Origin: an uncultured Psychroserpens sp.
GTDB lineage: Bacteria > Bacteroidota > Bacteroidia > Flavobacteriales > Flavobacteriaceae
DNA length: 64,000 bases
Assembly: GCA_947488655.1 (NCBI GenBank)
Contig: CANKZZ010000003.1
Location: 248,001-312,000 of the forward strand
Direction of reading: 5' to 3'
Positions 5,289 to 64,000 of the stretch are shown here, one piece after another; positions within the stretch are counted from its first letter, which is position 1, and every line of letters starts with the position of its first letter. A program made the position numbers and the translations under genes. The notes beneath the pieces were generated by a model that saw only the letters and a list, made by a program, of their open reading frames with translations, ran no database searches and was not told the origin of the DNA.

Positions 5289-5792
5289 TTAAGATTTTAA
5301 AGCGTTCAAAGCAGCCTCGTAGTTTGGCTCGTCTGCGATTTCTTGTACTTGTTCTGTATAAATAACTTTACCTTCTGTATCTACAACAATTACACATCTA
5401 GATAGCAATGATTCAAATGCACCATCTGTAAATTCCAATCCGTAAGATTTTCCGAAGTTACCATCTTTAAAATCTGATAAACTCTCTACGTTATCTAAAC
5501 CTTCTGCTCCACAAAAACGTGCCATAGCAAATGGTAAATCTCTAGAGATACATAGCACCTTAGTGTTATTTAGGGTACTGGCTGCTTTATTAAATTCTCT
5601 TATTGATGTAGCGCATGTTCCTGTATCTACACTAGGAAAAATATTTAACACTAAATTTTGACCTTTAAAGTCACTCAAAGATTTAGATGCTAAATCTGTA
5701 GTTGTTAGTTTAAACTCTGGTGTTTTTGAACCAGTTGTTGGTAATGACCCTGAAGTATGTACTGTGTCTCCTCCTAATGTTACTGTTGCCAT
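5289..5792 (-). CDS. tpx: Thiol peroxidase Tpx
   Basis: A 167-residue atypical 2-Cys peroxiredoxin. The peroxidatic cysteine C60 lies in PSVDTGTCATSIREFN, the family signature. The resolving cysteine C94 lies in ARFCGAEGLDN, matching the E. coli Tpx C61/C95 pair in position. It reduces hydrogen and lipid peroxides at the expense of thioredoxin. No signal peptide was seen, so it is probably cytoplasmic here, although E. coli Tpx was once called periplasmic. It is first in the run leading to dgkA and ftsK. One copy of the CTTCGGAA word lies inside it (5450-5457). Confidence 0.95.
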   Translation of the reverse strand: MATVTLGGDTVHTSGSLPTTGSKTPEFKLTTTDLASKSLSDFKGQNLVLNIFPSVDTGTCATSIREFNKAASTLNNTKVLCISRDLPFAMARFCGAEGLDNVESLSDFKDGNFGKSYGLEFTDGAFESLLSRCVIVVDTEGKVIYTEQVQEIADEPNYEAALNALKS

Positions 5793-5907
5793 GATATCTT
5801 AATTTTTGTGAATGTTAAAATTAAGGATTATTTGTGTGCCAAAAGCAAGGTCTGGATATTATTTTGCAATAGTTTAACAGATTACAAAAGTGATTAAAAC
5901 CTGGTAG

Positions 5908-6759
5908 TTAGAAAGTGCCTACAATACCTATTTGATTGCTGCTAAATCGTAAATTCCAAGAAATTAATTTTTTCTTTCTAGGATAATCATACGCTTCTTC
6001 TTTAAATAGATAATTGTCAATACAATCTACAACTATAATACTTAAGGCAGTACTAAAAGCAATATCTGTAATCCAATGTGCATCATCAATTATTCTAGAG
6101 ATTGGAGGTAAGGCACCTACAGTATAAATGCCAACTTTTACCCATGTGTTATCAAACTGTTTAGCAATAGAATGCGCCATAGTCATAGATAATATGGTAT
6201 GTCCAGAAGGGAATGATCGAAAGGTAGCTTCTCCAGAAAAAGGATTAAATGTAAAATTATCATAGCCAGAACCTGGACGTGCTCGTCCTACTGCAGCTTT
6301 TGTAAATGATTGTATTAAACCTGTTGTAACAGATGATGAAATTATAAGGATACTTGTTTTTCTAACTTTTTCGTTTTTGGTTAACAAACCAAAGGTGTAT
6401 AGTCCAGCATTGGCAGCAAAGTAGTTTTGCGGACTACCAAAATACCAGCCAAAGTCTCTTAGTACTTTTGGAAAATCGTTTCTATTTTGTTGCGTCCAAT
6501 CTCTAATTGGCTCATCTGCCAAACTCAGTGTTGCGGTACCAGCAAGTAGAATACCAAATTTTGTATAATCTTTCCCTTTCCATTGTACTGGTCTTGTCAA
6601 AGAATGTGCTACACTTTTTACCGTATATTTTGCATCATGCTTCATTAAATCCCAAACCGATGATGTGTCTTTAACTTTTGGGTTATCTAGAGTTTGCGCA
6701 ACAATAGATGTTGTTAAACTAAATAGAAAAAATGCTAATAAAAGGACTTTAGTTTTCAA
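5908..6759 (-). CDS. PAP2-family phosphatase, secreted or membrane-bound, TTG start
   Basis: 283 residues with an N-terminal signal peptide (MKTKVLLLAFFLFSLTTSIVAQ). The three phosphatidic-acid-phosphatase type 2 motifs are present: KAAVGRARPG (KxxxxxxRP), FPSGHT (PSGH) and SRIIDDAHWITD (SRxxxxxHxxxD). Such enzymes dephosphorylate lipid phosphates such as undecaprenyl pyrophosphate or phosphatidate at the periplasmic face. The start codon is TTG at 6759. It is in the same frame as pheT and follows the pheT TAA (6766-6768) after only two codons, so it is likely co-transcribed and translationally coupled to pheT. The physiological lipid is unknown. Confidence 0.85.
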   Translation of the reverse strand: MKTKVLLLAFFLFSLTTSIVAQTLDNPKVKDTSSVWDLMKHDAKYTVKSVAHSLTRPVQWKGKDYTKFGILLAGTATLSLADEPIRDWTQQNRNDFPKVLRDFGWYFGSPQNYFAANAGLYTFGLLTKNEKVRKTSILIISSSVTTGLIQSFTKAAVGRARPGSGYDNFTFNPFSGEATFRSFPSGHTILSMTMAHSIAKQFDNTWVKVGIYTVGALPPISRIIDDAHWITDIAFSTALSIIVVDCIDNYLFKEEAYDYPRKKKLISWNLRFSSNQIGIVGTF

Positions 6760-6765
6760 TATATT

Positions 6766-9195
6766 TTATCTTAATTCTGCTCCAAGTTGTTTTTCAAAAT
6801 TGGTTTGAAGTTTATTCATAATTTTATCAATTTGCTTATCTGTAAGTGTTTTATGTTCATCTTGAATCATAAAACTTACTGCATAACTTTTCTTTCCCTT
6901 CGGAAGATTATTACCTTGATAAACATCAAACAGGTCTACATCTTTAAGAAGATGCTTTTCAGTCTGCATTGCAATTTTATCTATGTCTTCAAAAGTAACA
7001 CTATGATCTAAAAGTAAAGCAAAATCGCGACGAACTTCGGGATATTTTGGAATATCTTTATATTTAATCTTGTTATAAGCAGCCATTTCTATGACGTTAT
7101 CCCAATTAAAATCGGCATAAAGTACTTCTTGAGAAATGCCAAAGTGTTTTAAAATCTTTTTATTTATTATACCAAAATCAACTAGTTTTTTCTTCCCAAT
7201 TGATAAACTGATTCCTTCATTAAAGACGTCATTTTTAATAGGAGAAACTTTAGATTTAGATAAGCCTAAACGATCTAATGTACTATTAACAACTCCTTTT
7301 AAATAAAAGAAACCACTTTTTTGAACAGGAGAATTCCATCTTAAATTAGATTTGTTACCTGTTAGTAGCATAGAAAGATGTTTATGCTCTTCTCGACCAT
7401 CAGGAAAACTATGATACGTTTTACCAAACTCATAAAGTTTTAAATCATCACGCTTTCTATTAATGTTATGACTTACCGCTTCTAAGCCCGAAAAAAGTAA
7501 ACTTTGGCGCATTACACTTAAATCGTTACTTAAAGGGTTTAGCATTTCTACATTATGCTCTTCTTTTAAGTGTTCACTTAGACTTATATATTTAGGAGTT
7601 GTAAGTGAGTTAGAGAGAATTTCGAAAAAACCTAAAGATGATAGCTGGTTACCAATAACGTTTTGAAGCTTGTAATCCTCAAATTTAGATGTGTTAGAGA
7701 TAGAAGCATTTAACTTCTCGGTTGTTTTTATATTGTTGTAGCCATATACACGCAAAATCTCTTCTATAACATCTGCTTCTCGTTGCACGTCATTACGATA
7801 TGCAGGAACAGTTAAGCCTAAACCAGCTTCTGTTACATTATTAACTTTAATATCTAATGAAGATAGTATACGCTTAATAGTTTCTTTAGGTATTTCTTCA
7901 CCAATTAATTTCGTGGTATTATCAAAACTTAGTCGTACCTGAAAATCTTCTATTTTTTTAGGATAAAAATCCATTACGTCACTAGAAATCTCTCCACCTG
8001 CAATTTCTACAATTAATAAAGCAGCACGTTTTAAAGCATAATCTGTAATGTTTGGATCAATACCTCTTTCAAACCTAAATGATGCATCTGTATTTAAAGC
8101 ATGACGCTTTGCAGTTTTTCTAATGCTTATAGGATTAAAATAAGCGCTCTCTAAAAAAATACTTGTTGTTGTTTGGGTAACTCCCGAATGAGCACCTCCA
8201 AAAACACCAGCAATACACATTGGCTTCTCTTCATCGCAAATCATAAGATCATCTGCGCTAAGCTCACGTTCTATATCATCTAAAGTTGTAAATTTTGTAC
8301 CTTCTGGTAGCGTTTTAACCACAACTTTATTACCCGAAATTTTAGCAGCATCAAAAGCGTGTAGTGGTTGCCCTAACTCATGTAAAACATAATTTGTAAC
8401 ATCAACAATATTGTTTTTTGGAGTTAAACCAATGGCTTTTAATCTATTTTGCAACCAACTAGGAGAATCTGCAACTTTAAGACCTGTTATTGTTAAACCG
8501 CAGTAACGAGGTGCTAAATTATAGTCTTCTACATCGATTCCTATTTTTAAAGAACGATTGTCTACATGAAAAGAACTAACCGATGGTGTAATTAATTCTG
8601 TATTAATATCGTCAACTTGTAGCAATCCAGCTTTTAAATCTCTCGCAACTCCCAAATGACTCATGGCATCTGCTCGGTTAGGTGTTAGGCCAATTTCAAA
8701 AACATCATCATTTTCTATATCAAAAATATCTGCAGCTAGAGTGCCTACTTCTATAGCCTCATCAAGTATCATAATCCCGTCGTGAGAGTTGCCAAGACCT
8801 AATTCGTCTTCAGCACAAATCATACCATGGCTTTCTTCGCCTCTAATTTTACCTTTCTTAATTTTCCAAGCTTCGCCAGTTTCGGTATAAAGTGTCGTTC
8901 CAATGGTTGCAACTGGCACTTTTTGTCCTGCAGCTACATTTGGTGCTCCACACACAATTTGTAACGCTTGGTCACCACCTATATTTACGGTTGTAATTTT
9001 TAATCGATCTGCATTTGGGTGCTGGATACAGGTTAAAACCTCACCAACAACAATACCTTCTAATCCGCCTTTTACAGATTGGTAGCTTTCTATGCCTTCA
9101 ATTTCTAAACCTAAATCGGTTAATAATTCTCCAGTTTTTTCAGCAGGCCAATCGGTTTTTAAAAATTGTTTTAGCCAGTTATATGATATTTTCAT
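6766..9195 (-). CDS. pheT: Phenylalanyl-tRNA synthetase beta subunit
   Basis: 809 residues, the usual length for the bacterial PheT chain. Domains in order: tRNA-binding OB fold (about 40-150, VGEVLTCIQHPNADRLKI), B3/B4 editing domain (about 210-390, with GLTPKNNIVDVTNYVLHELGQPLHAFD), B5 domain (about 400-475), a degenerate synthetase core, and the C-terminal FDX-ACB anticodon-binding domain (about 715-809, KYPEVRRDFALLLD). With PheS it charges tRNA-Phe and hydrolyses mischarged Tyr-tRNA-Phe. PheS is not in the window. The ATG at 9195 starts MKISYNWLKQFL, the classic PheT N-terminus. One CTTCGGAA copy lies at 6898-6905. Confidence 0.97.
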   Translation of the reverse strand: MKISYNWLKQFLKTDWPAEKTGELLTDLGLEIEGIESYQSVKGGLEGIVVGEVLTCIQHPNADRLKITTVNIGGDQALQIVCGAPNVAAGQKVPVATIGTTLYTETGEAWKIKKGKIRGEESHGMICAEDELGLGNSHDGIMILDEAIEVGTLAADIFDIENDDVFEIGLTPNRADAMSHLGVARDLKAGLLQVDDINTELITPSVSSFHVDNRSLKIGIDVEDYNLAPRYCGLTITGLKVADSPSWLQNRLKAIGLTPKNNIVDVTNYVLHELGQPLHAFDAAKISGNKVVVKTLPEGTKFTTLDDIERELSADDLMICDEEKPMCIAGVFGGAHSGVTQTTTSIFLESAYFNPISIRKTAKRHALNTDASFRFERGIDPNITDYALKRAALLIVEIAGGEISSDVMDFYPKKIEDFQVRLSFDNTTKLIGEEIPKETIKRILSSLDIKVNNVTEAGLGLTVPAYRNDVQREADVIEEILRVYGYNNIKTTEKLNASISNTSKFEDYKLQNVIGNQLSSLGFFEILSNSLTTPKYISLSEHLKEEHNVEMLNPLSNDLSVMRQSLLFSGLEAVSHNINRKRDDLKLYEFGKTYHSFPDGREEHKHLSMLLTGNKSNLRWNSPVQKSGFFYLKGVVNSTLDRLGLSKSKVSPIKNDVFNEGISLSIGKKKLVDFGIINKKILKHFGISQEVLYADFNWDNVIEMAAYNKIKYKDIPKYPEVRRDFALLLDHSVTFEDIDKIAMQTEKHLLKDVDLFDVYQGNNLPKGKKSYAVSFMIQDEHKTLTDKQIDKIMNKLQTNFEKQLGAELR

Positions 9196-9364: not shown

Positions 9365-9397
9365 TAGAGACTATAAGTTTTAAATATAAAAATCATT

Positions 9398-10612
9398 ATG
9401 CGAAAATTACTTGTTTTACCGCTTTTAGTATTAATTGTAGGTTGTAATCTCAATAGACCAGATGCTTTACAAGAAGGCGTTTGGAGAGCAGAGTTGCAAT
9501 TAACAGAGACTGAGGTATTACCTTTTAACTTTGAGGTTACTTCTCGAGATGCACTCAAAATTTTTAATGCAGACGAAGTTATAATGGTAACAGACATTAC
9601 TTATTCTAATGATACAGTTGTAATTAAAACACCTGTTTTTGAGGGTTATATTGAAGCAATTGTAAAAGATGGTACTTTAAATGGTAATTTTATAAAAGAG
9701 AGTTTAGATCGCATAGTTCCTTTTACTGCGGAAATAGGAAACACGTCTCGTTTTGATGTTGCTTCAACATCATCGACTCAAAATGTTACTGGTAATTGGG
9801 AAACTGTGTTTAGTCCAAATTCCGAAGAAGATAAATATATAGCTAAAGGTATTTTTGAACAGAATGGAAATATTGTAACAGGTACGTTTAGAACAACTAC
9901 TGGAGATTATCGATATTTAGAAGGTGTGATGGATGGTGATACGATGAAATTATCAACCTTTGATGGTGCACACGCCTTTTTGTTTACAGCACAAGTTAAT
10001 GATAGTACAATGAGTGGTAAATTTTACTCTGGCAATCATTGGGAAGAACCATTTACAGCTAAAAGAAACGAAAACTATGAGCTACCAAGTGCTAATGATT
10101 TAACTTTTTTAAATGAAGGTTATGATGCTTTAGAATTTACTTTTCCTGATGCCAATGGTAAACAAGTGTCTTTATCTGATAATCGTTTTAAAAATAAAGT
10201 TGTTATAGTGCAAATTATGGGAACATGGTGTCCAAATTGTTTAGATGAAAGTAAATATTACTCAGAGTTTTATAATAGCAATGCCGAAAAAGATATAGAG
10301 TTTGTGGCTTTAGCATTTGAGTATGCTAAAACAGAGGATAAGGCATTTAAAAGTATAAAGCGATTAAAAGATGATATTGGTATACAATATCCAATTTTGT
10401 TAGCTCAGTTTGGTACATCAAGTAAATCTAAGGCTCAAGAAAAATTACCAATGCTTAATCATGTGTTGTCTTATCCAACCTCAATATTTATTGACAAAAA
10501 AGGTAAGGTTAGAAAAATTCATACTGGATTTAACGGTCCAGCAACAGGAGAGAAGTTTATAGAATTCAAAGAAGAGTTCACAGGTTTTGTAAATCAACTA
10601 CTTGAGGAGTAA
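9398..10612 (+). CDS. TlpA/ResA-like thioredoxin-fold lipoprotein
   Basis: 404 residues. A lipoprotein signal peptide ends in LIVGC (lipidated C16). The first 240 residues form beta-rich domains without a recognised catalytic motif. From about residue 245 a thioredoxin-like domain of the AhpC/TSA-TlpA type begins, with the redox motif WCPNC at 277-281 (C278, C281) and the cis-proline region LSYPTSIFIDKKGKV. Family members are membrane-tethered periplasmic thiol-disulfide reductases, for example in cytochrome c maturation or disulfide repair. The partner is not identifiable here. It is transcribed divergently from pheT and ends convergently with another thioredoxin gene across a shared terminator. 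Confidence 0.85.
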   Translation: MRKLLVLPLLVLIVGCNLNRPDALQEGVWRAELQLTETEVLPFNFEVTSRDALKIFNADEVIMVTDITYSNDTVVIKTPVFEGYIEAIVKDGTLNGNFIKESLDRIVPFTAEIGNTSRFDVASTSSTQNVTGNWETVFSPNSEEDKYIAKGIFEQNGNIVTGTFRTTTGDYRYLEGVMDGDTMKLSTFDGAHAFLFTAQVNDSTMSGKFYSGNHWEEPFTAKRNENYELPSANDLTFLNEGYDALEFTFPDANGKQVSLSDNRFKNKVVIVQIMGTWCPNCLDESKYYSEFYNSNAEKDIEFVALAFEYAKTEDKAFKSIKRLKDDIGIQYPILLAQFGTSSKSKAQEKLPMLNHVLSYPTSIFIDKKGKVRKIHTGFNGPATGEKFIEFKEEFTGFVNQLLEE

Positions 10613-12452: not shown

Positions 12453-14591
12453 TTAGCTAATATAATTCCAAATATTCTTGTATTTACCAATCTCGCGGTA
12501 AGCATTTAAAATTGTTTTATGCTCGGGTAATACTAAAGAAGGGTCGCTGCTAAGTATTTTTTTTGCATAAAAACGAGCACTTTGCAAAATGTCTTTATCT
12601 TTTATAACATCTGCTATTTTTAAATTTAAAACACCGCTTTGTTGGGTTCCCATGATATCTCCAGGACCTCTTAATTTTAAATCTACTTCAGCAATTTCAA
12701 AGCCATCACTCGTTTTTGTCATGGTTTCTAAGCGTATCTTGCTATCTTGACTTAATTTGTGACTTGTCATTAAAATACAAAAACTTTGCTCTGCACCACG
12801 ACCAACACGACCTCGCAATTGATGTAATTGTGATAAGCCAAAACGCTCTGCACTTTCAATAATCATTACAGATGCGTTTGGTACATTAACGCCAACTTCT
12901 ATAACAGTAGTAGCTACCATAATATTTGTCTCGCCTTTGACAAAACGTTGCATTTCAAAATCTTTATCTGCTGGTTTCATTTTACCATGTACAATCGAGA
13001 TTTGATATTTAGGCTGCGGAAATTCTCTTACTATACTTTCATAGCCATCCATTAAATCTTTATAATCCATGTGCTCACTTTCTTGTATTAACGGATAGAC
13101 GATATAAACCTGTCTACCTTTTTCAATTTCATCTCGCATAAACCTCATAACTTTTAAGCGATTTGAATCGTATCTGTGAACCGTTTTTATGGCTTGTCTT
13201 CCTGGTGGTAATTCATCAATAATTGAGATGTCTAAATCACCATAAACCGACATAGCTAAAGTACGCGGAATTGGCGTTGCAGTCATGACCAAAACATGTG
13301 GCGGAATTATCTTAATTTCGGTCTCATCTGGTAGGGTAGAAGTAGGACCTTTTTTCCATAATTTTGATCGTTGAGCAACTCCAAATCTGTGTTGCTCATC
13401 TATAATAGCAAGCCCTAAATTTTTGAATTTCACCTTATCTTCCAGTAGTGCGTGAGTGCCAATTAAGATTTGTAAATTACCATTTTCTAAAGATTCGTGT
13501 ATATCTCGACGTTGTGAAGTGTTACTTGAACCTGTTAATAGTTTTATACTGATATTCAATTTATTAGCTAACTCGCTTAATCCTTGATAGTGTTGTACTG
13601 ACAAAATTTCAGTAGGAGCCATTAAGCACGCTTGAAAACCGTTGTCAAGTGCCATGAGCATTGACATGAACGCTACTATGGTCTTGCCTGAGCCTACATC
13701 ACCTTGTAGTAATCTGTTCATTTGTGCATTACTACCCAAATCGTATCTAATTTCTTTGAGAACTCGCTTTTGAGCATTGGTTAATTCAAACGGTAAATGC
13801 TCGTTGTAGAACGAATTAAAATATGTGCCAACTTGGGTGAAAGGGACACCTTTAATTTTTGATTTTTGGATAAGATTTTTCAAAATTAATTGAATCTGAA
13901 TATAGAATAATTCTTCAAATTTTAACCTAAATTGAGCTCGTGCTAAAAGCTCATTGTTTTTAGGAAAATGTACATTAAAAAGTGCTTCGCTTTTTGATAA
14001 TAATTTAAGCTCAGAAATTAGTGATGTTGGAAGCGTTTCAACAAAGCGTCCGTTTGTTTCTAAAAACAAACTTTGCATTATAGTATTCATTACTTTATTT
14101 GTAATGCCTTTATTAGATAATTTTTCGGTTGATGGGTAAACAGCTTGCATGGTCGACCGTAAATTCTGTTCATGCGATTTTAAAGGTTCAAATTCTGGAT
14201 GTGGCATTGAAAAGACACCATTAAACCAGTTTACTTTTCCGAAGATAACATAAGGTATATTGGGCTTTAGACTTTCTTTAATCCATTTTTGACCTCTAAA
14301 CCAAACCAGTTCCATGCGACCAGTATCATCTAGAAATGTCGCAACCAATCGCTTACCTCTTTTTTGAGCTACTTCTTTAAAACCTGTTATTTTACCTATG
14401 ATTTGAACCTCTGCGCTATTGCGTTGTAATTGATTGATTTTGTAATATTTAGTGCGATCGAGATAGCGGTTTGGGAATAGGTTAATCAAATCCTGATAGG
14501 TGTGAATGCCTAACTCGCTTCGCAGTAAATCTGCGCGATTAGGACCAACACCTTTGAGGTAATCTATAGGAGTTTGAAGTTTAGAACTCAT
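12453..14591 (-). CDS. recG: ATP-dependent DNA helicase RecG
   Basis: 712 residues, close to the usual length. An N-terminal wedge/OB domain (FPNRYLDRTKYYKI, then AEVQIIGKITGF) precedes the superfamily-2 motor. Motor motifs are Walker A GDVGSGKT, the DEQH box IIDEQHRFGVAQR, MTATPIPRTLAM, and the motif VI region QLRGRVGRG. RecG remodels stalled replication forks and Holliday junctions, driving fork reversal. It starts at ATG 14591 (MSSKLQTPIDYLKGVGPNRA) and points toward miaE. One CTTCGGAA copy lies within it (14237-14244). Confidence 0.97.
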   Translation of the reverse strand: MSSKLQTPIDYLKGVGPNRADLLRSELGIHTYQDLINLFPNRYLDRTKYYKINQLQRNSAEVQIIGKITGFKEVAQKRGKRLVATFLDDTGRMELVWFRGQKWIKESLKPNIPYVIFGKVNWFNGVFSMPHPEFEPLKSHEQNLRSTMQAVYPSTEKLSNKGITNKVMNTIMQSLFLETNGRFVETLPTSLISELKLLSKSEALFNVHFPKNNELLARAQFRLKFEELFYIQIQLILKNLIQKSKIKGVPFTQVGTYFNSFYNEHLPFELTNAQKRVLKEIRYDLGSNAQMNRLLQGDVGSGKTIVAFMSMLMALDNGFQACLMAPTEILSVQHYQGLSELANKLNISIKLLTGSSNTSQRRDIHESLENGNLQILIGTHALLEDKVKFKNLGLAIIDEQHRFGVAQRSKLWKKGPTSTLPDETEIKIIPPHVLVMTATPIPRTLAMSVYGDLDISIIDELPPGRQAIKTVHRYDSNRLKVMRFMRDEIEKGRQVYIVYPLIQESEHMDYKDLMDGYESIVREFPQPKYQISIVHGKMKPADKDFEMQRFVKGETNIMVATTVIEVGVNVPNASVMIIESAERFGLSQLHQLRGRVGRGAEQSFCILMTSHKLSQDSKIRLETMTKTSDGFEIAEVDLKLRGPGDIMGTQQSGVLNLKIADVIKDKDILQSARFYAKKILSSDPSLVLPEHKTILNAYREIGKYKNIWNYIS

Positions 14592-20046: not shown

Positions 20047-21615
20047 ATGACATCTAAAAGAAAAAAAATTGGTTTAATCTTTATAATTGTATTTGGTCTT
20101 GCGCTTGCAGGATTTTTTTATGCTAAGCATGTAGTACATACAAAATTCGATACATTTGTTGAGAATCTACCTAAGCACATTGATTTACAATACGATAGTA
20201 AAGAGGTTGATATTCTCTTCGGAAATTTAAAAATAATAAAACCACTATTAACTATTAGAGGAAAAGTAACCAATGAGATTAATGCTCAAATAAAGCTGGA
20301 AACTTTTGAAATTAATGATATAAGTTATTGGGAGTTATATAATAATGATGCCATTGATATAGAATCTGTAATTATAAGCCAACCCAATATTATCTACTAT
20401 CATAATAAGCAAGTAGAAGGACAAAGTTATAATGATATTTTTAAAGATGGTGCTAAAAAAACTTTTAGAATAGGCAACTTAGAGATTAATGAAGCTAATG
20501 TGGAGGTGTTAAATGTAGAAAATGATTCTCTCATTTTTTCTTCGGAAAATTTAAACATTCAATTATCGTCTGTAGCTTCATCAGAACCATCAAACTCAAA
20601 TCTTCCATTTGTGGTTGAGGATTTTTTGCTAAACTCAAGTAATCTCAAATATCAAGTAAGTGCCTACGAGAATTTATTTATAAATCAAATTGATATTGAT
20701 ACAGATAATTCTAAGTTTTCTGAAGTCTCTTTACAGACAAAATACTCTAAAGAAGAACTTTCAAAATTAATAGAAGTAGAACGAGATCATTTTGATTTAA
20801 GTGTGGTTTCCGTAGAAATTAAAAATCAAGCGTTAGTTACAAAAAAAGAATCACCAATAGGATTTAAAGCAAGTGATGTGATTTTTAATACGTTAAACCT
20901 AAATATCTATCGAGACAAATTAGTTGTAGATGATTTTAATCATAAATCATTGTATAGCAAAATGTTAAGGGAGCTTAATTTTAGTTTAGATTTAAGTAAT
21001 GTATTTATTAATAATGGATTAATTGTATATGAGGAAAAGGTAAAAGCAGATAATAATGCAGGTAAATTAGAATTCTCAAATTTAGATGCCAAAATTAATA
21101 ATGTGTCTAATACTTATAAAATTGGCAACAAAACAACTATAGATATAACTGCTAACTTTATGGAGAATACGCCTTTAAAAGTAGATTGGAATTTTGATGT
21201 TAATGATGTTAATGACACCTTTATATTTAAAGCAGATTTAGGCAATTTAAAAGCAGATCATCTTAACCAATTTATGCAACCTAACTTAAATATAAAACTT
21301 GAAGGCGAATTACTAAAAACCTATTTTACTGTAGGTGGTAATGCAAATACATCTACAGTTAATTTAAAGACAGATTACGATCAATTTGATGTCGTTATAC
21401 TCAAAGAAGACGGAAAAGAAAAAAATAAATTTCTATCTGGTTTGGTAAATTTATTTATATCAAAAGATAGTAAAGATGACTCTAATGATTTTAGAGAAAG
21501 TGATACCGAAACTGTAGAGCGAGACAAAACCAAATCGGTATTTAACTTTGTATGGAAAAACGCTAGAGCAGGACTACTATCTGCTATGGTTGGTGATGGT
21601 GAAAAAGACGATTAA
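20047..21615 (+). CDS. AsmA/DUF748-like membrane-anchored periplasmic protein
   Basis: About 522 residues (529 if the ATG at 20026 is used). One N-terminal membrane anchor (KIGLIFIIVFGLALAGFFYAKH) leads into a long beta-rich periplasmic region with repeated patterns such as DIESVIISQPNIIYYHN, IGNLEINEANVEVLNVEN and FSLDLSNVFINNGLIVYEEK. These resemble the AsmA-like/DUF748 proteins thought to bridge the envelope and move or organise lipids. Assignment is by pattern only. The ATG at 20047 puts basic residues before the anchor and is preferred. Its stop overlaps the stop of the convergent M20 gene by 4 bp. It carries two CTTCGGAA copies. Confidence 0.6.
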   Translation: MTSKRKKIGLIFIIVFGLALAGFFYAKHVVHTKFDTFVENLPKHIDLQYDSKEVDILFGNLKIIKPLLTIRGKVTNEINAQIKLETFEINDISYWELYNNDAIDIESVIISQPNIIYYHNKQVEGQSYNDIFKDGAKKTFRIGNLEINEANVEVLNVENDSLIFSSENLNIQLSSVASSEPSNSNLPFVVEDFLLNSSNLKYQVSAYENLFINQIDIDTDNSKFSEVSLQTKYSKEELSKLIEVERDHFDLSVVSVEIKNQALVTKKESPIGFKASDVIFNTLNLNIYRDKLVVDDFNHKSLYSKMLRELNFSLDLSNVFINNGLIVYEEKVKADNNAGKLEFSNLDAKINNVSNTYKIGNKTTIDITANFMENTPLKVDWNFDVNDVNDTFIFKADLGNLKADHLNQFMQPNLNIKLEGELLKTYFTVGGNANTSTVNLKTDYDQFDVVILKEDGKEKNKFLSGLVNLFISKDSKDDSNDFRESDTETVERDKTKSVFNFVWKNARAGLLSAMVGDGEKDD

Positions 21616-25355: not shown

Positions 25356-25413
25356 ATTTTTTTTTCTTCGGAAATTTTAGTTTGTAAAGCTTGGATAGTG
25401 AAAGAAAACCAAA

Positions 25414-53465: not shown

Positions 53466-54724
53466 TGGTTAACTACAAATTTTAAGGGTTTAAATTGAAA
53501 TTTTGAATTAGTAATATAATAGATGCCATTACTAATTTGCGTTGCATCTATAGATATTAACGTATTATTGGCATCAACAGTTTTTACCACTTGGCCTAGA
53601 CTATTAAAAATGTACAGTTCTAATTGGTTTTGTAAACTCAAATCTACACTTAAGGTTAAAGTATTGTCAATAATATTAGACCCAAGAATTGTAATCATAT
53701 TAGTAATGTTAAACTCTGGGATGCTTAATGATTGATTGGTTTGTAGTTGTAATGTAACGGGAAGATGGTCACTAAAATTGTGTAGCGCATCTCTAATTGC
53801 GAATGAAAAATCTGTGCCATCACAATCATTAGAATTTATGGCTTGATTATAGCAATTTGAATTTTCATTATTACCGTAGACGTCATAACTACCTGCTACA
53901 AATGATAAATTAGGATTTGCTATCATGTTTTCCGAAGTCATAATAAAATCAAATCTATCGTCAAAACCACCAGTTGTACCACCAAAACCCGTTTGTGTTC
54001 TTGTAGATTGTGTCATAACATCTACAAAATTTGAGTTGTTGTGCCAACTCCCAATACGATTTGCTGGATCAGTAAAAATAATAGTGTTGCCAGTATCTAT
54101 AAGTCTTTGAAAAGCAGGTTCAGAGTCTGTATAAACATTAAAATCTCCTGCCAATACAATATTACTGTCTACAGGAAAATCATCTAAATAAATGACCAAG
54201 TCTTCTACCATTTGCAATCTAGATTGTTGGTTGTTTGTACCGCTAGATGCTTTCAAGTGACAAACTATAAAATCTAAAATTAACGGTGTTGTAACTTGCT
54301 CTACAGAGTTTATTTTTAATCTGTAATGGTTAAAATCTCTAAAAATAGTTGTGACAATATCTTGACTTTCTAAAATAAATTTAGAACTATCAAAATAGAG
54401 TAATTGTTGCAAATCATTTTGATTACCAATGTTATCATCTGAGGTGTTAAGCTCAAAAGTGGCACTTTGATAATTAGGATTTATAAGCTGTAAAGCATCT
54501 AAAATTGTATTTGCTCCAGACTCATTATTAAGTTCACAAACCATAAAAACATCTGGTCTGTAATCATTTAAAATAAAAGATAAATCATTTATTCTATTAG
54601 GTACAGCATCTTCCAACGGAAAATTAAGTACGTTATAAAACATGAGTTTAAAATCTGTTTGAGCACAAAGTGTCGAGACAGATGCAACACATAGAGAAAC
54701 AAATAAAATTAATTTCTTAATCAT
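53462..54724 (-). CDS. Endonuclease/exonuclease/phosphatase-family protein with T9SS sorting domain
   Basis: 420 residues with a signal peptide (MIKKLILFVSLCVASVSTLCAQ). The EEP fold shows FKLMFYNVLNFP, the metal-binding MVCELNNESG, VLAGDFNVYTD and the final SDHLPV. A C-terminal type A sorting domain (about 350-420, QLELYIFNSLGQVVKTVD and ISNGIYYI near the end) directs it through the type IX secretion system to the surface or outside. It probably cleaves nucleic acid or phosphoesters outside the cell. It is coupled to the M1-like/barrel gene by a 4-bp overlap. Confidence 0.9.
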   Translation of the reverse strand: MIKKLILFVSLCVASVSTLCAQTDFKLMFYNVLNFPLEDAVPNRINDLSFILNDYRPDVFMVCELNNESGANTILDALQLINPNYQSATFELNTSDDNIGNQNDLQQLLYFDSSKFILESQDIVTTIFRDFNHYRLKINSVEQVTTPLILDFIVCHLKASSGTNNQQSRLQMVEDLVIYLDDFPVDSNIVLAGDFNVYTDSEPAFQRLIDTGNTIIFTDPANRIGSWHNNSNFVDVMTQSTRTQTGFGGTTGGFDDRFDFIMTSENMIANPNLSFVAGSYDVYGNNENSNCYNQAINSNDCDGTDFSFAIRDALHNFSDHLPVTLQLQTNQSLSIPEFNITNMITILGSNIIDNTLTLSVDLSLQNQLELYIFNSLGQVVKTVDANNTLISIDATQISNGIYYITNSKFQFKPLKFVVNH

Positions 54725-55812: not shown

Positions 55813-55898
55813 AAAACATAAAAAATTATGACTGCGATAGAATTAAGATCTTAATTGATAAAGGACGTTTTAGCCTTTTTCTTCGGAAATGAGCCTGA

Positions 55899-58727
55899 TT
55901 ACAACTCTTTTTTAAGAAATTTGGCAGTATAGCTTTTCTTATCTTTCACAATTTGCTCAGGTGTTCCCTTAGCAACAACTTCGCCACCTCCTTGGCCACC
56001 TTCATAACCGATATCTATTATATAATCACACATTTTAACCACATCTAAGTTGTGTTCTATAATAAGTATAGTATTTCCTTTATCTACTAATTTATTAAGA
56101 ACAACCATAAGTACTCTAATATCTTCAAAATGCAAACCAGTAGTTGGTTCATCTAAAATATAAAAAGTATTACCTGTATCTCGCTTACTTAATTCTGTAG
56201 CTAATTTAATACGTTGTGCTTCTCCACCAGACAGAGTGGTACTTTGTTGACCAAGTGTAATATACCCTAAACCAACATCAACTATTGTTTCTAATTTTTT
56301 ATGAATTTTAGGGATATGCTCAAAAAAGCTTACCGCTTCTGTCATAGTCATATCTAAAACATCACTAATAGATTTTCCTTTGTATCTAATTTCTAAAGTT
56401 TCTCTATTAAAGCGTTTACCTTGGCAAGTTTCGCACTCTACGTAAACATCTGGAAGGAAATTCATTTCTATAACTCTTAATCCTCCACCTTGACAAGTTT
56501 CACAACGACCACCTTTAACATTAAAACTAAATCGTCCTGGTTTATAGCCTCTAATCATTGCCTCAGGAATCTTAGCAAACAAGCTACGAATTTCATCAAA
56601 GGTTTTAGTATACGTTGCAGGATTACTCCTTGGCGTTCTTCCAATAGGAGATTGATTAATATCTATAACCTTATCACAATGCTCTAAACCTTTAATGCTT
56701 TTATAAGGCATAGGTTTTTTAACGCCATTAAAGTAATAGGCATTCATTATAGGATATAAGGTTTCATTTATAAGTGTAGATTTACCACTACCAGAAACTC
56801 CAGTAACTCCTATCATTTGTCCTAAAGGAATATTAATAGAAACATTTTTTAAATTATTTCCCGTACAGCCTTTAAGTTGTATTTTTTTACCGTTTCCTTT
56901 TCTTCTACTTTTTGGAACAGGAATTTCTTTTTTTCCGTTAAGATAATCGGCAGTTAAGGTATCGTGGGTAAGTAACTCTGCAGGAGTACCAATACTAATA
57001 ATTTCGCCTCCATATTTTCCTGCTTTTGGTCCAATATCAATAACATAATCTGCTCGTTCAATCATATCTTTATCATGCTCAACCACAATAACAGAGTTAC
57101 CAATATCTCGCAGAGCAACTAAAGAATTTATTAATTTTTCATTATCGCGCTGGTGTAAACCAATACTAGGCTCATCTAAAATATAGAGTACACCAACTAA
57201 TTGCGAACCAATTTGTGTGGCTAAGCGTATACGTTGAGCTTCTCCACCAGATAATGATTTAGAGCTTCTATTTAACGAGAGGTAATCTAAACCTACATCG
57301 AGTAAAAAGTTTAATCTTGCTTTAATTTCTTTAACAACCTCTTCGCCAATTTTTAATTGGGTAGCGCTCAATTTCTCATTTAATGTAGCGAACCATGTTG
57401 CTAAATCAACAATATCCATATTGGCTAATTCTGCAATATTTAGTCCGTTAACCTTAAAATATAGCGATTCTTTCCTAAGTCGAGATCCTTCACAAGTAGG
57501 ACATTCTACCTTATCCATATAATCTTTTGCCCAACGTTTTAATGACGTAGTTTCGGCATTTGTATATTGGCTTTCTATAAAATTAGCTACACCTTCAAAA
57601 TCGATCTTATAATCTCTAGTTACACCTAGAGTTTTACTTTCTACAGAAAACTTATCGTTGCCACCATACATTATCATTTGTTTAGCTTCCGAAGGTATAT
57701 TTTTATAAGGGTCATTTAAAGTAAAGTCAAACCGTTGAGCAATGGTTTCAAATTGTTTAAAAATCCAACTATTTTTTTGAGGACCATGTGGTGCTAAAGC
57801 TCCTGCTTTAATAGATAGCGTATCATCAGGTACAATTTTGTTTTCATTGACTTGATAAAGCGTGCCTATACCATTACAGGTTTGGCAAGCACCTTTTGGA
57901 GAATTAAACGAAAAATTATTTGGCTCAGGATTTGGATACGAAATACCAGATGATGGACACATTAAATTTCTACTAAAATAACGAGCTTCGTTTGTCTCAT
58001 GATCAAGAACCATAAGTACATCGTCACCATGATACATGGCTGTATTTATGGTTTCGGCGAGACGTTTATCATTATCATCGGTATCGTCAATTTTCAATCT
58101 ATCAATGACGATTTCAATATCATGCATTTTGTAACGATCCAGCTTCATACCTTTTACCAAATCTCTTACTTCACCATCTGCTCTTACTTTTACAAAGCCT
58201 TGTTTTGCGATTTGCTCAAACAACTCGCGATAATGACCTTTACGAGATCGAATAACAGGAGAGAGGATGTTGATTTTTTTTCCTTTATAACTCTCCTTTA
58301 TTAGGTCTTTAATTTGTTCATCATTATAACTTACCATTTTCTCTCCAGTATTATAACTGTATGCATCACTTGCACGAGCGTATAATAATCTTAGAAAATC
58401 ATAAATTTCGGTAATAGTTCCAACAGTAGAACGTGGTGATTTACTTGTTGTTTTTTGCTCAATGGCTATAACTGGTGAGAGTCCGTCAATTTTATCCACA
58501 TCAGGACGTTCTAATCCGCCAAGAAACTGTCTTGCATATGCAGAGAATGTTTCGATATATCGACGCTGACCTTCAGCATAAATCGTATCAAATGCTAATG
58601 ATGATTTTCCACTACCAGACAAACCTGTAATTACTACAAGTTTTTCTCGTGGTATTGTAACATCAATATTTTTTAGGTTGTGAACTCTCGCTCCTTGAAC
58701 TTCAATTGCATCATCAAATTTGGTCAT
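55899..58727 (-). CDS. uvrA: Excinuclease ABC subunit A
   Basis: 942 residues, the normal length. Two ABC ATPase halves have Walker [10 protein letters not shown] near residue 34 and GVSGSGKST near 640, each with its LSGGEAQRI signature and a D-E-P Walker B. Zinc-finger cysteines appear in [24 protein letters not shown] and CETCQGK. UvrA finds DNA damage and loads UvrB in nucleotide excision repair. The start at ATG 58727 gives the usual N-terminus with [25 protein letters not shown] copy lies within it (57687-57694) and one 10 bp past its stop (55881-55888). Confidence 0.97.
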
Positions 58728-58882: not shown

Positions 58883-58900
58883 CATTAAGTTTTTATAAAA

Positions 58901-59444: not shown

Positions 59445-59972
59445 ATGGATATATTAGGAATAGGATCAAGAATAAACCACAGTGAATTTGGTAAAGGTGT
59501 CGTCACAAACGTCACGTCAAAACATTATTGGGTCACTTTTATGGATAACGGATTAGAAACCATAGAAATTGATAGTGATTTTGAAGTTATTGAAGCCTGC
59601 GAAGATGAAGTAGATACAATTAGTTTTGCAGAAGTAGAAAGCAGCCTAGTGCATATCTTAAAAAAATGGAGTGATACTTCGGAAATCGTCAATATTGCAG
59701 ATAAATGGAAAGGTGGAAAACTAATTTTAGAACCTAAGGATACGAGTTTACAAGGTAAAGAGTTACCAATTGATAGCTTTTTCCATAAAATAACCATGGT
59801 TAGAGATCGACTGCGAGTAATGGAACAAAAGATTAACTCTAGTAAAAATCTTGATGAACAAGAGAAAATAGATTTACAGCAATACATTACCCGTAGTTAT
59901 GGTAGTTTAACGAGTTTTAATGTGTTGTTTAAAATGAAGTCACAGCAGTTTGTTGGGCAGAAGAGTAAGTAG
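59445..59972 (+). CDS. Conserved protein with N-terminal SH3/Tudor-like domain
   Basis: 175 residues. The first 50 residues (IGSRINHSEFGKGVVTNVTSKHYWVTFMDNGLETI) resemble the SH3/Tudor-like tail of the UvrD helicase at 23034-25355 (GNFVEHGRFGKGEVLKIEG). The remainder is helical (SLVHILKKWSD, MVRDRLRVMEQKINSSKNLDEQEKIDLQQYI). No catalytic motif. A nucleic-acid or RNA-polymerase contact by analogy with that tail is an inference. Confidence 0.7.
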   Translation: MDILGIGSRINHSEFGKGVVTNVTSKHYWVTFMDNGLETIEIDSDFEVIEACEDEVDTISFAEVESSLVHILKKWSDTSEIVNIADKWKGGKLILEPKDTSLQGKELPIDSFFHKITMVRDRLRVMEQKINSSKNLDEQEKIDLQQYITRSYGSLTSFNVLFKMKSQQFVGQKSK

Positions 59973-59976
59973 TTTT

Positions 59977-60255: not shown

Positions 60256-60285
60256 GTTCTTTTTTTTATCAAGAAAAAAATGAAC
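60256..60285. repeat. GTTC...GAAC hairpin with A/T-rich stem
   Basis: GTTC and GAAC flank an eight-base T tract and a seven-base A tract around the loop atcaag, between convergent genes. No T-run follows outside, so it may be a REP-like element or a weak terminator. Confidence 0.4.
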
Positions 60286-60325
60286 ACATACAATTTTAAA
60301 AGCCAAGTTTTAAACATAGAACATT

Positions 60326-60700: not shown

Positions 60701-60772
60701 TAAATTTAATTCTAAATCTCAAATTTATATGAGAAACTCTGTGCTACTTAGTGTATCTCTTAGTTACAATTT

Positions 60773-61516
60773 TTATTGAAAACTGTCACCTGATGACTGC
60801 TCACTGGTTTTCAAACCCTCAATCTCCAAACCAAAAGCCAACAACTTATGAAATGTTGGTAATTGTGCTCCAGTATCAGTCGTTGTCCAATCGCTCCAAG
60901 ACGCTTCTAATCCATCAATAGGTATAATATCAACCCACATTTGATAGCTTGTAGGTTTTCCACTTTTATCTAAGTGCCATAAGTATGAATCTCCAGGAGT
61001 AGAGCCACCATTAGTATAAGTGACCAATAAGGCATCTTTATTGTCTTCACTTTTTACAAGACTTCGCTCTACACCATCGTCAAAAACTTTGTAAGGTGCA
61101 ACCAGCCAAAATGTATCGTTATTGAAATAGTCAACCGCGTTTTGGATATAGTCTTTTTTGTCTTCTCCTGTATATTTTTCTTCGGAAATGTAAACTATAG
61201 ACTCGCTATTGTCTATTAAATCTAAATCGACCTTAATATTTTTCCAATAGACCTCACAAGTGTTTTCTGTCTTATACCATTTATAATGGTGCCTTTTTTT
61301 GAATGTAAATTCTATATAATCTGTAGCCTTGTAGGCATCATGATTTAATGCATTCAACATTCTTGTTGCAAGTTGATCTGCAGCTTGACCTTGCTTGCCA
61401 GTAGGTAACTCTTCATTATATTTAAAATACATGAAAGCAAAAAATAGGAGAGTTGGTAAAGTAAAGAAGATGATAATACCACCTATTATTTTAATAATCT
61501 TTTTTGGTTTAAGCAC
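60773..61516 (-). CDS. Membrane-anchored protein of unknown function, GTG start
   Basis: 247 residues from GTG 61516, the only usable start near a basic N-terminus (MLKPKKIIKIIGG). One membrane helix at about 11-30 (IIFFTLPTLLFFAFMYFKY) precedes a beta-rich periplasmic domain (DYIEFTFKKRHHYKWYKTENTCEVYWKNIKVDL). No catalytic motif. One CTTCGGAA copy at 61180-61187. Confidence 0.65.
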   Translation of the reverse strand: MLKPKKIIKIIGGIIIFFTLPTLLFFAFMYFKYNEELPTGKQGQAADQLATRMLNALNHDAYKATDYIEFTFKKRHHYKWYKTENTCEVYWKNIKVDLDLIDNSESIVYISEEKYTGEDKKDYIQNAVDYFNNDTFWLVAPYKVFDDGVERSLVKSEDNKDALLVTYTNGGSTPGDSYLWHLDKSGKPTSYQMWVDIIPIDGLEASWSDWTTTDTGAQLPTFHKLLAFGLEIEGLKTSEQSSGDSFQ

Positions 61517-61597
61517 TTTAAAGTTTTTTTTAAAGGTATTAAATATTCAAAGGTGAATCTCGTGAGTTTTTAAAACAATTTTAGAATGACGATAAGT

Positions 61598-62494
61598 TTA
61601 ACTCAGCATCTTTCTAACACCATTTGCTAAAGCTAAAGCAGCATTTTTATGACGTCTAAACCAAAGTTCTGGCTCAATAAGTTCTAACTCTGATAATGCT
61701 ATATCACCTCCATTATCTTCAAATATATCTACTCTTGCGTAAATAGGTAATTCTGAGCAGGCACTGACAGTAGTTTCTGCAAATAAAATTTCTTCCTTTG
61801 TAGGTGAGTAATCTTCTATGGTGCCACCAAAATCATCTTGTACTCTAAAATCACCAGCTTTGGCTTTTTTAAGGATAGCATGAGAATAAACACCATTAAA
61901 AACCATCATTGATATTTCTCCTTTTTTAACAATATTATGTTGAAAGGGTTGTAGCATTAAACTTTCCGAAGTAATTAAATCTTGAAAAATTTTTTCGTGA
62001 TCATTTATGGTTTCTAAAGATAACTTATAGGTATGACGAGCAGCTCCAGAAACACAAGGTTTTAAAACCGTTTCGCTCCAATTTAAGATGTCATGCAATT
62101 GTGCTAAGGTAACTTTTGAGCCTTTTTCTATAAAATGACTTTTGGCAATATGAATACCTTTAATTTGTAAATCTAAAAGGTAATGTTTATCAATATTCCA
62201 TCTAATTAACTTTTCAGAATTTAGAAGTAACGTTTCCGAAGACACAGATTCTAACCAATTTGAAAATTCATCAAACCTATCAAAATAATCCCAAGTACTA
62301 CGAAACAAAATGGCCTTTGTTGTTGACCAATCAAAAAATTGATCGTCCCATGCAAGACGTAACGTTTTAAGTCCTATTTGCTCTAAGGCGTGATACACCA
62401 AACGGTCTTCGTAATACACATTGTGTTTGTAGTTATTAGTTTTAGAATCATTGAGGTAGCGACTATCTGTTAAAATGACAACGTCGTATAGCAT
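61598..62494 (-). CDS. ATP-grasp-fold protein
   Basis: 298 residues. The ATP-grasp pattern is visible: ILFRSTWDYFDRFDEF early, VLKPCVSGAARHTYKL for nucleotide binding, LQPFQHNIVKKGEISMMVFNGVYSHAILKKAKAGDFRVQDDFGG in the middle, and a metal-binding ELELIEPELWF at the end. Members ligate amino acids or peptides to acceptors (RimK, D-Ala-D-Ala ligase and related). The substrate is unknown. It follows the S41 protease gene by 18 bp on the same strand and may share its transcript. Confidence 0.8.
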   Translation of the reverse strand: MLYDVVILTDSRYLNDSKTNNYKHNVYYEDRLVYHALEQIGLKTLRLAWDDQFFDWSTTKAILFRSTWDYFDRFDEFSNWLESVSSETLLLNSEKLIRWNIDKHYLLDLQIKGIHIAKSHFIEKGSKVTLAQLHDILNWSETVLKPCVSGAARHTYKLSLETINDHEKIFQDLITSESLMLQPFQHNIVKKGEISMMVFNGVYSHAILKKAKAGDFRVQDDFGGTIEDYSPTKEEILFAETTVSACSELPIYARVDIFEDNGGDIALSELELIEPELWFRRHKNAALALANGVRKMLS

Positions 62495-62512
62495 TTAGCA
62501 AGTCTTTATTAA

Positions 62513-64000
62513 TTAATTGTCTTTTTCATAACCATCTGGACGCATTGATCTATTAGGCGCATCAGGCTCTGGCATTAATTTAAACTCGTTATTTTCTAAT
62601 TGTTTCATAGCTTCTTTAACTGCTCGTTCTAATTGAGGATCTTGACCTTGACTTACTAATTTAGGGTGTTGTATGACTTCAATGTCTGGAGCAACACCTT
62701 CACCTTCTACAGCCCAATTACCATCAACATCATAAAAACCACCACGAGGAGCTACCATACGACCACCATCTATAAAAGGAGGAGTATCCCAAGTACCAAC
62801 AAGTCCTCCCCAAGTTCTTGTACCAACTAAAGTGCCTAATTTTGCTTCTTTAAACATATACGGTAGTAAATCACCACCAGATCCTGCACGTTCATTAATT
62901 ATCATAACTTTTGGTCCCCAAATACCTGCCATTGGTGTTGTCCAGGGACGATTAGTTTTTGTTTTACTATTAAAGTATCCAAAAAGTTTACGATTCATAA
63001 TATCAATCATGTAATCTGCAGCAGAACCTCCACCATTGTTTCGCTCATCTATAATAGCTCCTTTTTTGTCTTGTTGTGAGAAGTAATAACGATTAAAAGA
63101 TGTGAAACCGCCTCCTCCAGTATTGGGTACATAAACATAAGCCAATTTACCATTAGAGAGTTCATCAACTTTACGACGATTTCCTTCTACCCAATCTAAA
63201 TATCTTAAGTTACGCTCGCTAGATACTGGTTTTATTAAAATTGTTTGTGCGCCAGTTAATGAGGGTTTGCTGTTTACCGTTATATTAATTTCTCGACCTG
63301 CTGTTTGTTCTAGTAATTCATATGGGTTAACTGTAGAAGATAGGTTTTTACCGTTAATTGCCAGTATATAATCGCCTTCATTTATTTTAACTCCAGGTTG
63401 TGCCAGAGGAGCAATTGTTTCAGGATTCCAGCGCTCTCCATTGTAGATTTTTTTAATTTGATAGGCTCCTTCGTTAAGTATAATATCTGCACCTAATAAA
63501 CCAACTGGTACATAATTTACATTTGGTAAATCGCCTCCAGACACATAAGAATGACCAATAGCAACCTCACCACTCATAATATCTACAACATAGTTTAAAT
63601 CTGTTCTATGACGTACATCTTCTATCCAAGGAGAATACCATGCGTACACATCATCCCATGGAGCGCCATGAACATTATCTACATATAAAAAGTCGCGCAT
63701 GTAACGCCAACCTTCTTTAAAAATCTGCTTATATTCTTTTTTAGGGTCTATTTTAATTTTAAGATTTGTATCAATTTTCCCATCAGAGAAATTAGCTTTT
63801 CCTTTGGTACTTACGATAGCCCATTGACCATTTTTATTAAGAAGTGTAGAATTTCTATCTTCGGAAATGAGCATACTTTGTACACCGTCGTCAAATGCAG
63901 AAGCTTTGTCTTTTTCGGCATCAAAATCATGAATTTTAATTCCGTTACCATTCTCTATAGCTTCAGCAACAAAAACATGATTTTTAGGAGCTTTAACCAA
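62513..64000 (-). CDS. Tricorn-like S41 peptidase, N-terminus outside the window
   Basis: 495 residues seen; the gene continues past 64000. A PDZ-like domain (about 200-260, INEGDYILAINGKNLSS) precedes the S41 core, with GAIIDERNNGGGSAADYMID and the nucleophile serine in MIINERAGSGGDLLPYMFK near 373. The ending RPDGYEKDN is likely the true C-terminus. Such tricorn-type proteases degrade oligopeptides, and the missing N-terminus is expected to be a beta-propeller region. Confidence 0.9.
   Translation of the reverse strand: MVKAPKNHVFVAEAIENGNGIKIHDFDAEKDKASAFDDGVQSMLISEDRNSTLLNKNGQWAIVSTKGKANFSDGKIDTNLKIKIDPKKEYKQIFKEGWRYMRDFLYVDNVHGAPWDDVYAWYSPWIEDVRHRTDLNYVVDIMSGEVAIGHSYVSGGDLPNVNYVPVGLLGADIILNEGAYQIKKIYNGERWNPETIAPLAQPGVKINEGDYILAINGKNLSSTVNPYELLEQTAGREINITVNSKPSLTGAQTILIKPVSSERNLRYLDWVEGNRRKVDELSNGKLAYVYVPNTGGGGFTSFNRYYFSQQDKKGAIIDERNNGGGSAADYMIDIMNRKLFGYFNSKTKTNRPWTTPMAGIWGPKVMIINERAGSGGDLLPYMFKEAKLGTLVGTRTWGGLVGTWDTPPFIDGGRMVAPRGGFYDVDGNWAVEGEGVAPDIEVIQHPKLVSQGQDPQLERAVKEAMKQLENNEFKLMPEPDAPNRSMRPDGYEKDN

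Follow-up and report, generated by a model that had tools for sequence, protein, structure and literature searches.

A highly iterated octamer in a Psychroserpens-group flavobacterium as a candidate DNA uptake sequence

A 64,000-nucleotide stretch of DNA from an uncultured Psychroserpens sp. (assembly GCA_947488655.1, contig CANKZZ010000003.1, positions 248,001 to 312,000; hereafter, the window) carries 27 copies of the octamer CTTCGGAA, 16 on the plus strand and 11 on the minus strand. We report that this word is maintained by a force acting on DNA, not on proteins. It forms the core of a longer motif, TTTT-CTTCGGAA-A, which may serve a Psychroserpens-group flavobacterium as a DNA uptake sequence that labels the cell's own DNA; this proposal seems to us evenly poised. 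We infer that the species would be competent, that the motif would raise uptake, and which kind of surface protein might read it. A broader proposal, held more tentatively and at a little under an even chance, is that this would be the first uptake word of the phylum Bacteroidota, with kin words in other genera of the family, and that it would be read by the surface machinery whose outer components were identified by genetics in Riemerella.

Enrichment of the word

A DNA uptake sequence is expected to be a short, non-palindromic word in great genome-wide excess, both within and between genes and beyond the effects of codon usage. CTTCGGAA is not palindromic (its reverse complement is TTCCGAAG), and an excess of this kind is observed. 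Enrichment was assessed with dinucleotide shuffles, Markov models of orders 2, 3 and 6, synonymous-codon shuffles and the reversed word. Within the window, CTTCGGAA is the top 8-mer, with 27 copies against 0.43 expected under the order-2 model, and 100 dinucleotide shuffles gave a mean of 0.96 and a maximum of 3. An earlier note, made from the letters of the window by eye, had counted these 27 copies and their 16/11 division between strands, and all of them were found, from the first at 5450 to the last at 63859-63866. Two of its figures needed correction: the window has 31.7% G+C instead of ~34%, and 13 CTTCGG words lack the AA instead of ~9 (CTTCGG occurs 40 times on the two strands).

The excess extends across the 3.6-Mb draft genome that carries the window (G000; C1 and C3 are contigs of this genome unless another is stated). 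We counted 1,194 copies (614 on the plus and 580 on the minus strand), or 332 per Mb and ~1 per 3 kb, against 119 (62 + 57) for the reversed word, so the enrichment is not confined to the window; such confinement would have spoken against the earlier note. In a 464-kb sample (C1:1-400000 plus the window), CTTCGGAA ranks first among 8-mers by the order-3 model (169 vs 8.0). The order-6 model that the note had proposed as a check predicts 156 copies against the 169 observed in the same sample, which is formally near expectation; however, this comparison is circular, because the 7-base subwords are nearly confined to CTTCGGAA itself (171 occurrences of CTTCGGA against 169 of the complete octamer). 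A null that respects codons is clearly exceeded: across 416 kb of coding sequence, 142 copies were observed where 20 synonymous-codon shuffles gave 5.8 (z 56), and CTTCGGAA again ranks first, as it does in the window and in the 464-kb sample. Codon or dipeptide usage is thereby ruled out as the cause of the excess, and the note's view of a frame-independent signal at the DNA level, for which protein selection is insufficient, is upheld. The in-gene readings it had listed (SE, PK, FGN/FGK and others) are also found. In a sample comprising C1:1-400000, L242 and the window, two other words, GCTCTGCA (30 vs 5.8) and TGCCGAAA (42 vs 8.9), exceed the codon shuffle as well.

Extended motif

The motif is longer than eight bases. 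Across 175 sites the flanks are one-sided, with T at positions -6 to -1 in 62-81% and A at +8 in 70%, which defines TTTT-CTTCGGAA-A, ~13 bases. The flank is sharper at the 33 sites that are not wholly within called genes, where T is found at -4 to -1 in 91, 91, 85 and 79% and A at +8 in 82%. TTTTCTTCGGAAA occurs 270 times in this genome against 1 for its reversed form; the runners-up among 199 drawn Flavobacteriaceae genomes are G063 (106 vs 5), G076 (80 vs 2) and G039 (60 vs 2). Among words one base removed from CTTCGGAA, none is above expectation at the first C or the last A. Third-base variants are tolerated (A, 30 vs 4.6; G, 28 vs 3.1) and retain part of the T-tract. CTACGGAA and CTGCGGAA may be tolerated variants of the motif, with 3.2 and 2.6 T of 6, respectively, in the T-tract against 4.1 for CTTCGGAA. 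CTTCGGCA and CTTCGGTA exceed the order-2 expectation but lack the T-tract (1.8 T of 6), and they were not counted as members.

C(UUCG)G is a stable tetraloop, and the earlier note had suggested that many copies carry a T-tract and form such a hairpin. The T-tract is borne out; the hairpin is not. T at -3 to -1 plus A at +8 would permit a 4-bp stem, and the hairpin form TTTCTTCGGAAA accounts for 43 of the 142 copies in C1:1-400000 and 5 of the 27 in the window. A UUCG hairpin acting as an RNA element in transcript processing or termination is expected to show compensatory pairing in the stem, and no covariation is observed (pairs -3/+8, 101 vs 103.6 expected; pairs -4/+9, 47 vs 55.3). Copies within genes also show no sense bias (73 sense vs 71 antisense). 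Because the T-tract has no complementary A-tract and does not covary, the hairpin idea fails, and we give an RNA element almost no credence.

Placement in the genome

An uptake sequence is expected to have no strand preference. None is seen between the two strands of the genome (614/580), and copies within genes show no polarity relative to transcription (73/71). The earlier note had called for a test of strand bias relative to replication, and this too revealed none: 53 leading-strand and 54 lagging-strand copies were found in 20 sampled places of a 3.1-Mb contig of a second genome, G101, with replication halves assigned from weak GC skew (-0.027 and +0.016), and 54 leading and 60 lagging copies in stretches of G000 with GC skew beyond 0.04.

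Uptake sequences are also expected to be depleted where coding sequence is under constraint and in recently gained DNA. Three observations agree with this, namely the density of the word inside and outside genes, the codon identities described below, and a word-free integrated element. Among 225 sites in 624 kb, the word is commoner outside genes (42 sites, 0.489/kb) than inside (183 sites, 0.340/kb). Only 2 of 144 in-gene copies lie in the frame that needs CGG or CGA codons, and 19 of 144 lie no more than 75 nt from the gene start, a region holding ~7% of bases. The largest gap between copies, 25.5 kb at C1:306743-332218 (L046, L047; p ~0.014 after correction for gap number), spans the integrated element, whose products include a tyrosine integrase, large AAA proteins and a protein with a DUF3987 domain. 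Word-free gaps are not all foreign DNA, because the genes in a 10-kb gap of the window (32.4-42.7 kb) are ordinary ones, including holA and genes for a sigma factor and a TraB-family protein.

Conservation and origin of copies

Conservation was assessed by aligning C3:248001-472000 to Psychroserpens burtonensis (80% identity), with permuted words as controls. Sixty-five of 83 CTTCGGAA sites align, and 32 of these are kept, compared with 122 of 1,060 control words (Fisher p 9e-13). When P. burtonensis is taken as the starting point, 56 of 69 sites align and 31 of the 56 are kept, against 124 of 1,327 controls (Fisher p 1e-16). For the isolate N2Y086, 11 of 38 copies are kept versus 43 of 580 controls (Fisher p 2e-4), and in the reverse comparison 11 of 30 versus 43 of 742. 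The nearest named PheT to that of the window belongs to Arcticiflavibacter luteus (92%), in which all 5 aligned window sites are kept. Synonymous codons are mostly kept more often inside words than elsewhere (TCG, 6/8 vs 35/159; TCC, 13/20 vs 13/45, and 10/11 vs 16/143 in the reverse comparison), with variation in the small N2Y086 codon sets (AAG, 1/4 within words vs 93/256).

Copies of CTTCGGAA arise by point substitution within aligned sequence. At site 6898, for example, the counterpart is TTTTGGAA in Meridianimaribacter and N2Y086, TTTCGGAA in P. algicola and TTTAGGAA in SPM9. A mobile or inserted repeat was considered and rejected, as the flanks align with those of relatives and the sites differ by substitutions. 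At sites whose ortholog has no copy of the word, the amino acid encoded by the overlapping codons is unchanged in 71 of 102 cases for P. burtonensis, 52 of 88 for N2Y086 and 26 of 47 for SPM9 (55-70%), compared with 86%, 82% and 83%, respectively, for changed control words; the p-values of ~1e-5 are approximate, since codons of one site are not independent. This lower amino-acid identity indicates that CTTCGGAA sits where protein constraint is relaxed, or overrides it.

Copies of CTTCGGAA in the window, with their state in aligned relatives:
5450..5457, minus strand: kept in A. luteus, P. burtonensis and SPM9
6898..6905, plus strand: in pheT; kept in A. luteus and P. burtonensis, TTTTGGAA in Meridianimaribacter and N2Y086
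9820..9827, minus strand: kept in A. luteus and P. burtonensis
14237..14244, minus strand: in recG; kept in A. luteus, P. burtonensis, N2Y086, SPM9 and P. algicola
14828..14835, plus strand: near gene start; kept in A. luteus, P. burtonensis and N2Y086
20217..20224, plus strand: copy
20540..20547, plus strand: copy
22853..22860, minus strand: near gene start; kept in P. burtonensis, SPM9 and P. algicola
25366..25373, plus strand: intergenic
26831..26838, plus strand: copy
28200..28207, minus strand: near gene start; kept in P. burtonensis
30137..30144, plus strand: kept in P. burtonensis and N2Y086
32428..32435, plus strand: copy
42651..42658, plus strand: kept in P. burtonensis
43925..43932, minus strand: copy
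45052..45059, plus strand: copy
48132..48139, plus strand: CTTCAGAA in P. burtonensis
49023..49030, minus strand: absent from all 3 relatives aligned there
52667..52674, plus strand: kept in N2Y086
53930..53937, minus strand: CTTCAGAA in P. burtonensis
55881..55888, plus strand: intergenic, 10 bases past the stop codon of a minus-strand gene
57687..57694, minus strand: CTACGGAA in P. burtonensis
59677..59684, plus strand: absent from all 3 relatives aligned there
61180..61187, plus strand: absent from all 3 relatives aligned there
61964..61971, minus strand: copy
62234..62241, minus strand: copy
63859..63866, plus strand: kept in P. burtonensis, N2Y086 and SPM9

The window also encodes, at 46382-47986, a methyltransferase with all three AprA-type domains (AprA_N, WH_AprA and AprA MT2-like), a type known from polyketide loading modules.

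Distribution across Bacteroidota

The earlier note had proposed a comparison with related Flavobacteriaceae, and this showed that the word-rich state is shared by some lineages. We drew 199 genomes of the family, representing 198 genera, and 296 genomes of the phylum, 264 of them outside the family. CTTCGGAA exceeds three times the reversed control in 17 of the 199 family genomes, at 131-683 copies per Mb. In most of the others it is below the reversed control; G096 (736 vs 389) and G074 (620 vs 420) are examples of intermediate counts. Twenty-five of the 264 non-family genomes also exceed three times the control (102-424 copies); however, the reversed word is a poor control there, because the ratio mostly reflects its own rarity outside the family, and densities were compared instead. 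By that measure, densities above 125 per Mb are confined to Flavobacteriaceae among the genomes drawn, and the densest outsider, G376, has ~120 per Mb. The rarity of the reversed word weakens the claim of restriction to the family and leaves the within-genome evidence untouched. One distant family of the same phylum, labelled f16, has 92-424 copies against 8-121 for the reversed word, either a composition effect or weak enrichment.

In a set of 22 genomes, the word exceeds its reversed control in each of the 8 from Psychroserpens (337-1,060 vs 173-301) and in 4 more: Algibacter miyuki (847 vs 256), A. lectus (494 vs 238), Winogradskyella tangerina (471 vs 262) and a metagenome-assembled genome, G493 (471 vs 261). 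It falls short of the control in the remaining 10, which include Meridianimaribacter, Ichthyenterobacterium and two Hanstruepera. A non-random panel of 30 genomes was assembled from the 17 that exceed three times the control and 13 hand-picked from the low end. On a PheT tree of 29 of these (G058 has no PheT match and was excluded), 4 changes of word state are needed, and a single group holds 11 of the word-rich genera. A contig of G114 (C1 of that genome, 35 kb; L062, L063) has 2 copies, though G114 has 1,167 in 3.0 Mb; it is possibly a plasmid or mobile contig.

Codon shuffles place CTTCGGAA first in G063, G012, G039, G007, G076 and the pooled loci of A. luteus and P. burtonensis; in G101 only TTCAGAAA ranks higher. 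Loci pooled from six other Psychroserpens also show an excess of CTTCGGAA (15 vs 3.5), yet it is not one of their leading words, and pooled loci of the Winogradskyella and Algibacter groups contain no comparably prominent word. CTTCAGAA is enriched 3.4-5.1x beside CTTCGGAA in G101, G063, G039 and G007. TTCAGAAA is enriched 4-5x beside CTTCGGAA in G101 (L059-L061, L204-L223), and also in G063 and G039. These two words may represent a dialect or a second signal, CTTCAGAA being reminiscent of dialects. Other words stand out in single groups: CGGACTCA reaches 9x the codon-shuffle expectation in G012 (16 vs 1.8; L051-L053, L236, L237), and the palindrome AGCATGCT occurs 14 times vs 2.0 in coding sequence of the six other Psychroserpens (L066-L071).

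Uptake machinery and points against an uptake role

Within this bacterial line, printed evidence of competence comes only from Riemerella, a distant relative. For transformation, Riemerella anatipestifer depends on ComEC, DprA, ComF and RecA, together with four proteins described as having no counterpart in known systems; the four include an outer-membrane protein and a DUF5689 protein, encoded in one operon (PMC8459023). In R. columbina, DNA of the same species competes with donor DNA at 1 ug, and R. anatipestifer or E. coli DNA only at 10 ug (PMC7965970). The genome carrying the window encodes ComEC and, at C1:465061-469421, an adjacent pair consisting of a 957-aa CarboxypepD_reg outer-membrane protein and a 476-aa DUF5689 lipoprotein; ComEC and this Riemerella-type pair occur in word-poor genomes too. 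A sequence search found no solved structure matching either member of the pair. In many panel genomes a second, diverged homolog of the outer-membrane uptake protein (~21-31% identity) is present, often no more than 10 kb away (around L286-L315).

Apart from receptor history and close pairs, the features of anatomy and evolution that were tested are those of an uptake sequence; several results nevertheless weigh against that reading. Each of the four protein families taken to represent uptake (ComEC, HHH_3, DUF5689 and the outer-membrane protein) matches in 30 of 30 panel genomes, word-rich or word-poor (the DUF5689 match of G058 is a different protein, and the outer-membrane match of G119 is weak). 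Unrelated control genomes also match ComEC (10/14), HHH_3 (11/14) and DUF5689 (2/14). The history of a receptor is expected to follow that of the word, as it does, with deviations, for ComP and the DNA uptake sequences (DUS) of Neisseriaceae, and the trees of the DUF5689 protein (G058 omitted as the wrong protein and G122 as short) and of the outer-membrane protein need 7 and 6 word-state changes, respectively, against 4 on PheT. Because they need more changes than PheT, neither surface protein can be said to read the word, and neither is supported as the specificity factor; another receptor is possible. Inverted close pairs are common, though not universal, in the DUS and in the uptake signal sequences (USS) of Pasteurellaceae. 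Close pairs of CTTCGGAA show no excess in any orientation (6 among 142 sites, ~5 expected arithmetically), and spacing is random, with a coefficient of variation of 1.08 in C1 and 0.88 in the window. In addition, the density in DNA that aligns to P. burtonensis (65 copies in 167.7 kb) is only slightly above that in unaligned DNA (18 in 56.3 kb), and an excess of words one base away from CTTCGGAA is limited to certain positions.

Alternative explanations

A Chi-like site, at which AddAB would alter its activity in double-strand-break repair and begin RecA loading, with repair selection keeping the copies, shares several features with CTTCGGAA. Both are conserved octamers, found at ~1 per 3 kb here and at 1 per 5 kb in E. 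coli, and the word is conserved between species and missing from the integrated element. AddAB-type genes are apparently present: frames of 934 and 1071 aa with PDDEXK_1 matches lie ~5 kb apart (C1:385778 and C1:391346) and resemble AddB and AddA, which we take them to be. Chi is also commoner in the core genome, and polarity is among the criteria by which it is recognized (PMC8022716). However, CTTCGGAA is not polarised toward the leading strand (53/54 in G101 and 54/60 in G000, as judged from weak GC skew), and its conserved A/T flank suggests that it is read in double-stranded form. PDDEXK_1 occurs in 30 of 30 panel genomes (at least 2 matches in 26), with or without the word. Because this family is as widespread as the uptake families, it is chiefly the missing polarity that disfavours Chi, which we consider unlikely. 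A site bound by a protein of chromosome organisation, segregation or self-marking, with selection acting on each copy separately, would also account for the abundance, extended asymmetric motif and conservation, which suit any double-stranded-DNA binder. The absence of polarity, on the same weak GC skew, argues against a role like that of the FtsK-orienting polar sequences (KOPS), and random spacing argues against an organising site as well. Moreover, the words coincide with amino-acid changes, which would be costly for site-by-site selection of ~1,200 sites, and we regard such a role as quite improbable.

The word could instead owe its origin and upkeep to the joint action of a methyltransferase and a bias of methyl-directed repair, with no role of the word itself, as for the highly iterated palindromes (HIPs) of cyanobacteria. 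The gross pattern, a patchy and frame-independent abundance, is the same: HIP1 is a highly iterated octamer that is patchy in its group, HIP words accompany methyltransferases that match them, and in a portion of HIP1 copies the conserved flank is longer (PMC4390886). HIPs are palindromic, whereas CTTCGGAA is asymmetric with a one-sided T-tract, and orthologous sites often differ at 2-4 positions, beyond the ready reach of single-mismatch repair of a methylated core. This explanation is very doubtful. Among the roles that the earlier note had listed, DNA uptake is the best fit; Chi-like and segregation roles suffer from the lack of polarity, and RNA processing from the lack of covariation and sense bias.

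Discussion

If TTTT-CTTCGGAA-A is an uptake sequence, the DNA-binding part of an outer-membrane uptake system would prefer the double-stranded motif, which would give motif-bearing fragments an advantage in uptake and recombination. Recombination would in turn spread new copies of the word produced by random point mutation, up to ~1 per 3 kb wherever proteins tolerate it.

Known uptake words offer both likenesses and differences. Uptake in Haemophilus influenzae and other Pasteurellaceae depends on a type-IV-pilus system. Uptake words have been described for Pasteurellaceae and Neisseriaceae (PMC7811141). Like CTTCGGAA, the USS has more than 1,000 copies, a short core and AT-rich flanks, and is underrepresented in constrained coding sequence and in new segments, for which molecular drive is offered as an explanation (PMC7811141). 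In contrast, the word described here is unrelated in sequence, belongs to another phylum and has its T-tract before the core. The DUS is likewise an asymmetric and lineage-structured word, with dialects that track phylogeny (PMC3630211), and the enrichment of CTTCAGAA alongside CTTCGGAA recalls these dialects. It differs in that both candidate surface proteins here fail to follow the word and that close pairs are not in excess. The likeness to the Riemerella system (RS04915/RS04920, ComEC, DprA and others) lies in ComEC and the adjacent CarboxypepD_reg and DUF5689 proteins, matched to RS04915/RS04920 by domain and gene order only. The putative uptake words tabulated for R. columbina are A/T-rich k-mers, unlike CTTCGGAA (PMC7965970). 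Among the matches listed in the open-licence literature, we found no uptake signal reported for Bacteroidota and no published assignment of the word, in agreement with the earlier note.

Competence is documented in the Flavobacteriaceae line, with partly novel machinery, and one species, R. columbina, prefers its own DNA. If CTTCGGAA were instead Chi or methylation-driven, it would still be a genome-shaping signal of ~1,200 copies. A ~13-base motif in a culturable marine species can be tested with simple fragments and could help to transform these bacteria, and, if the uptake reading is true, the word could serve as bait for its receptor. Sequence-specific DNA uptake would then have evolved once more, on machinery unlike that of known uptake systems, as a case of convergent evolution of DNA self-recognition.

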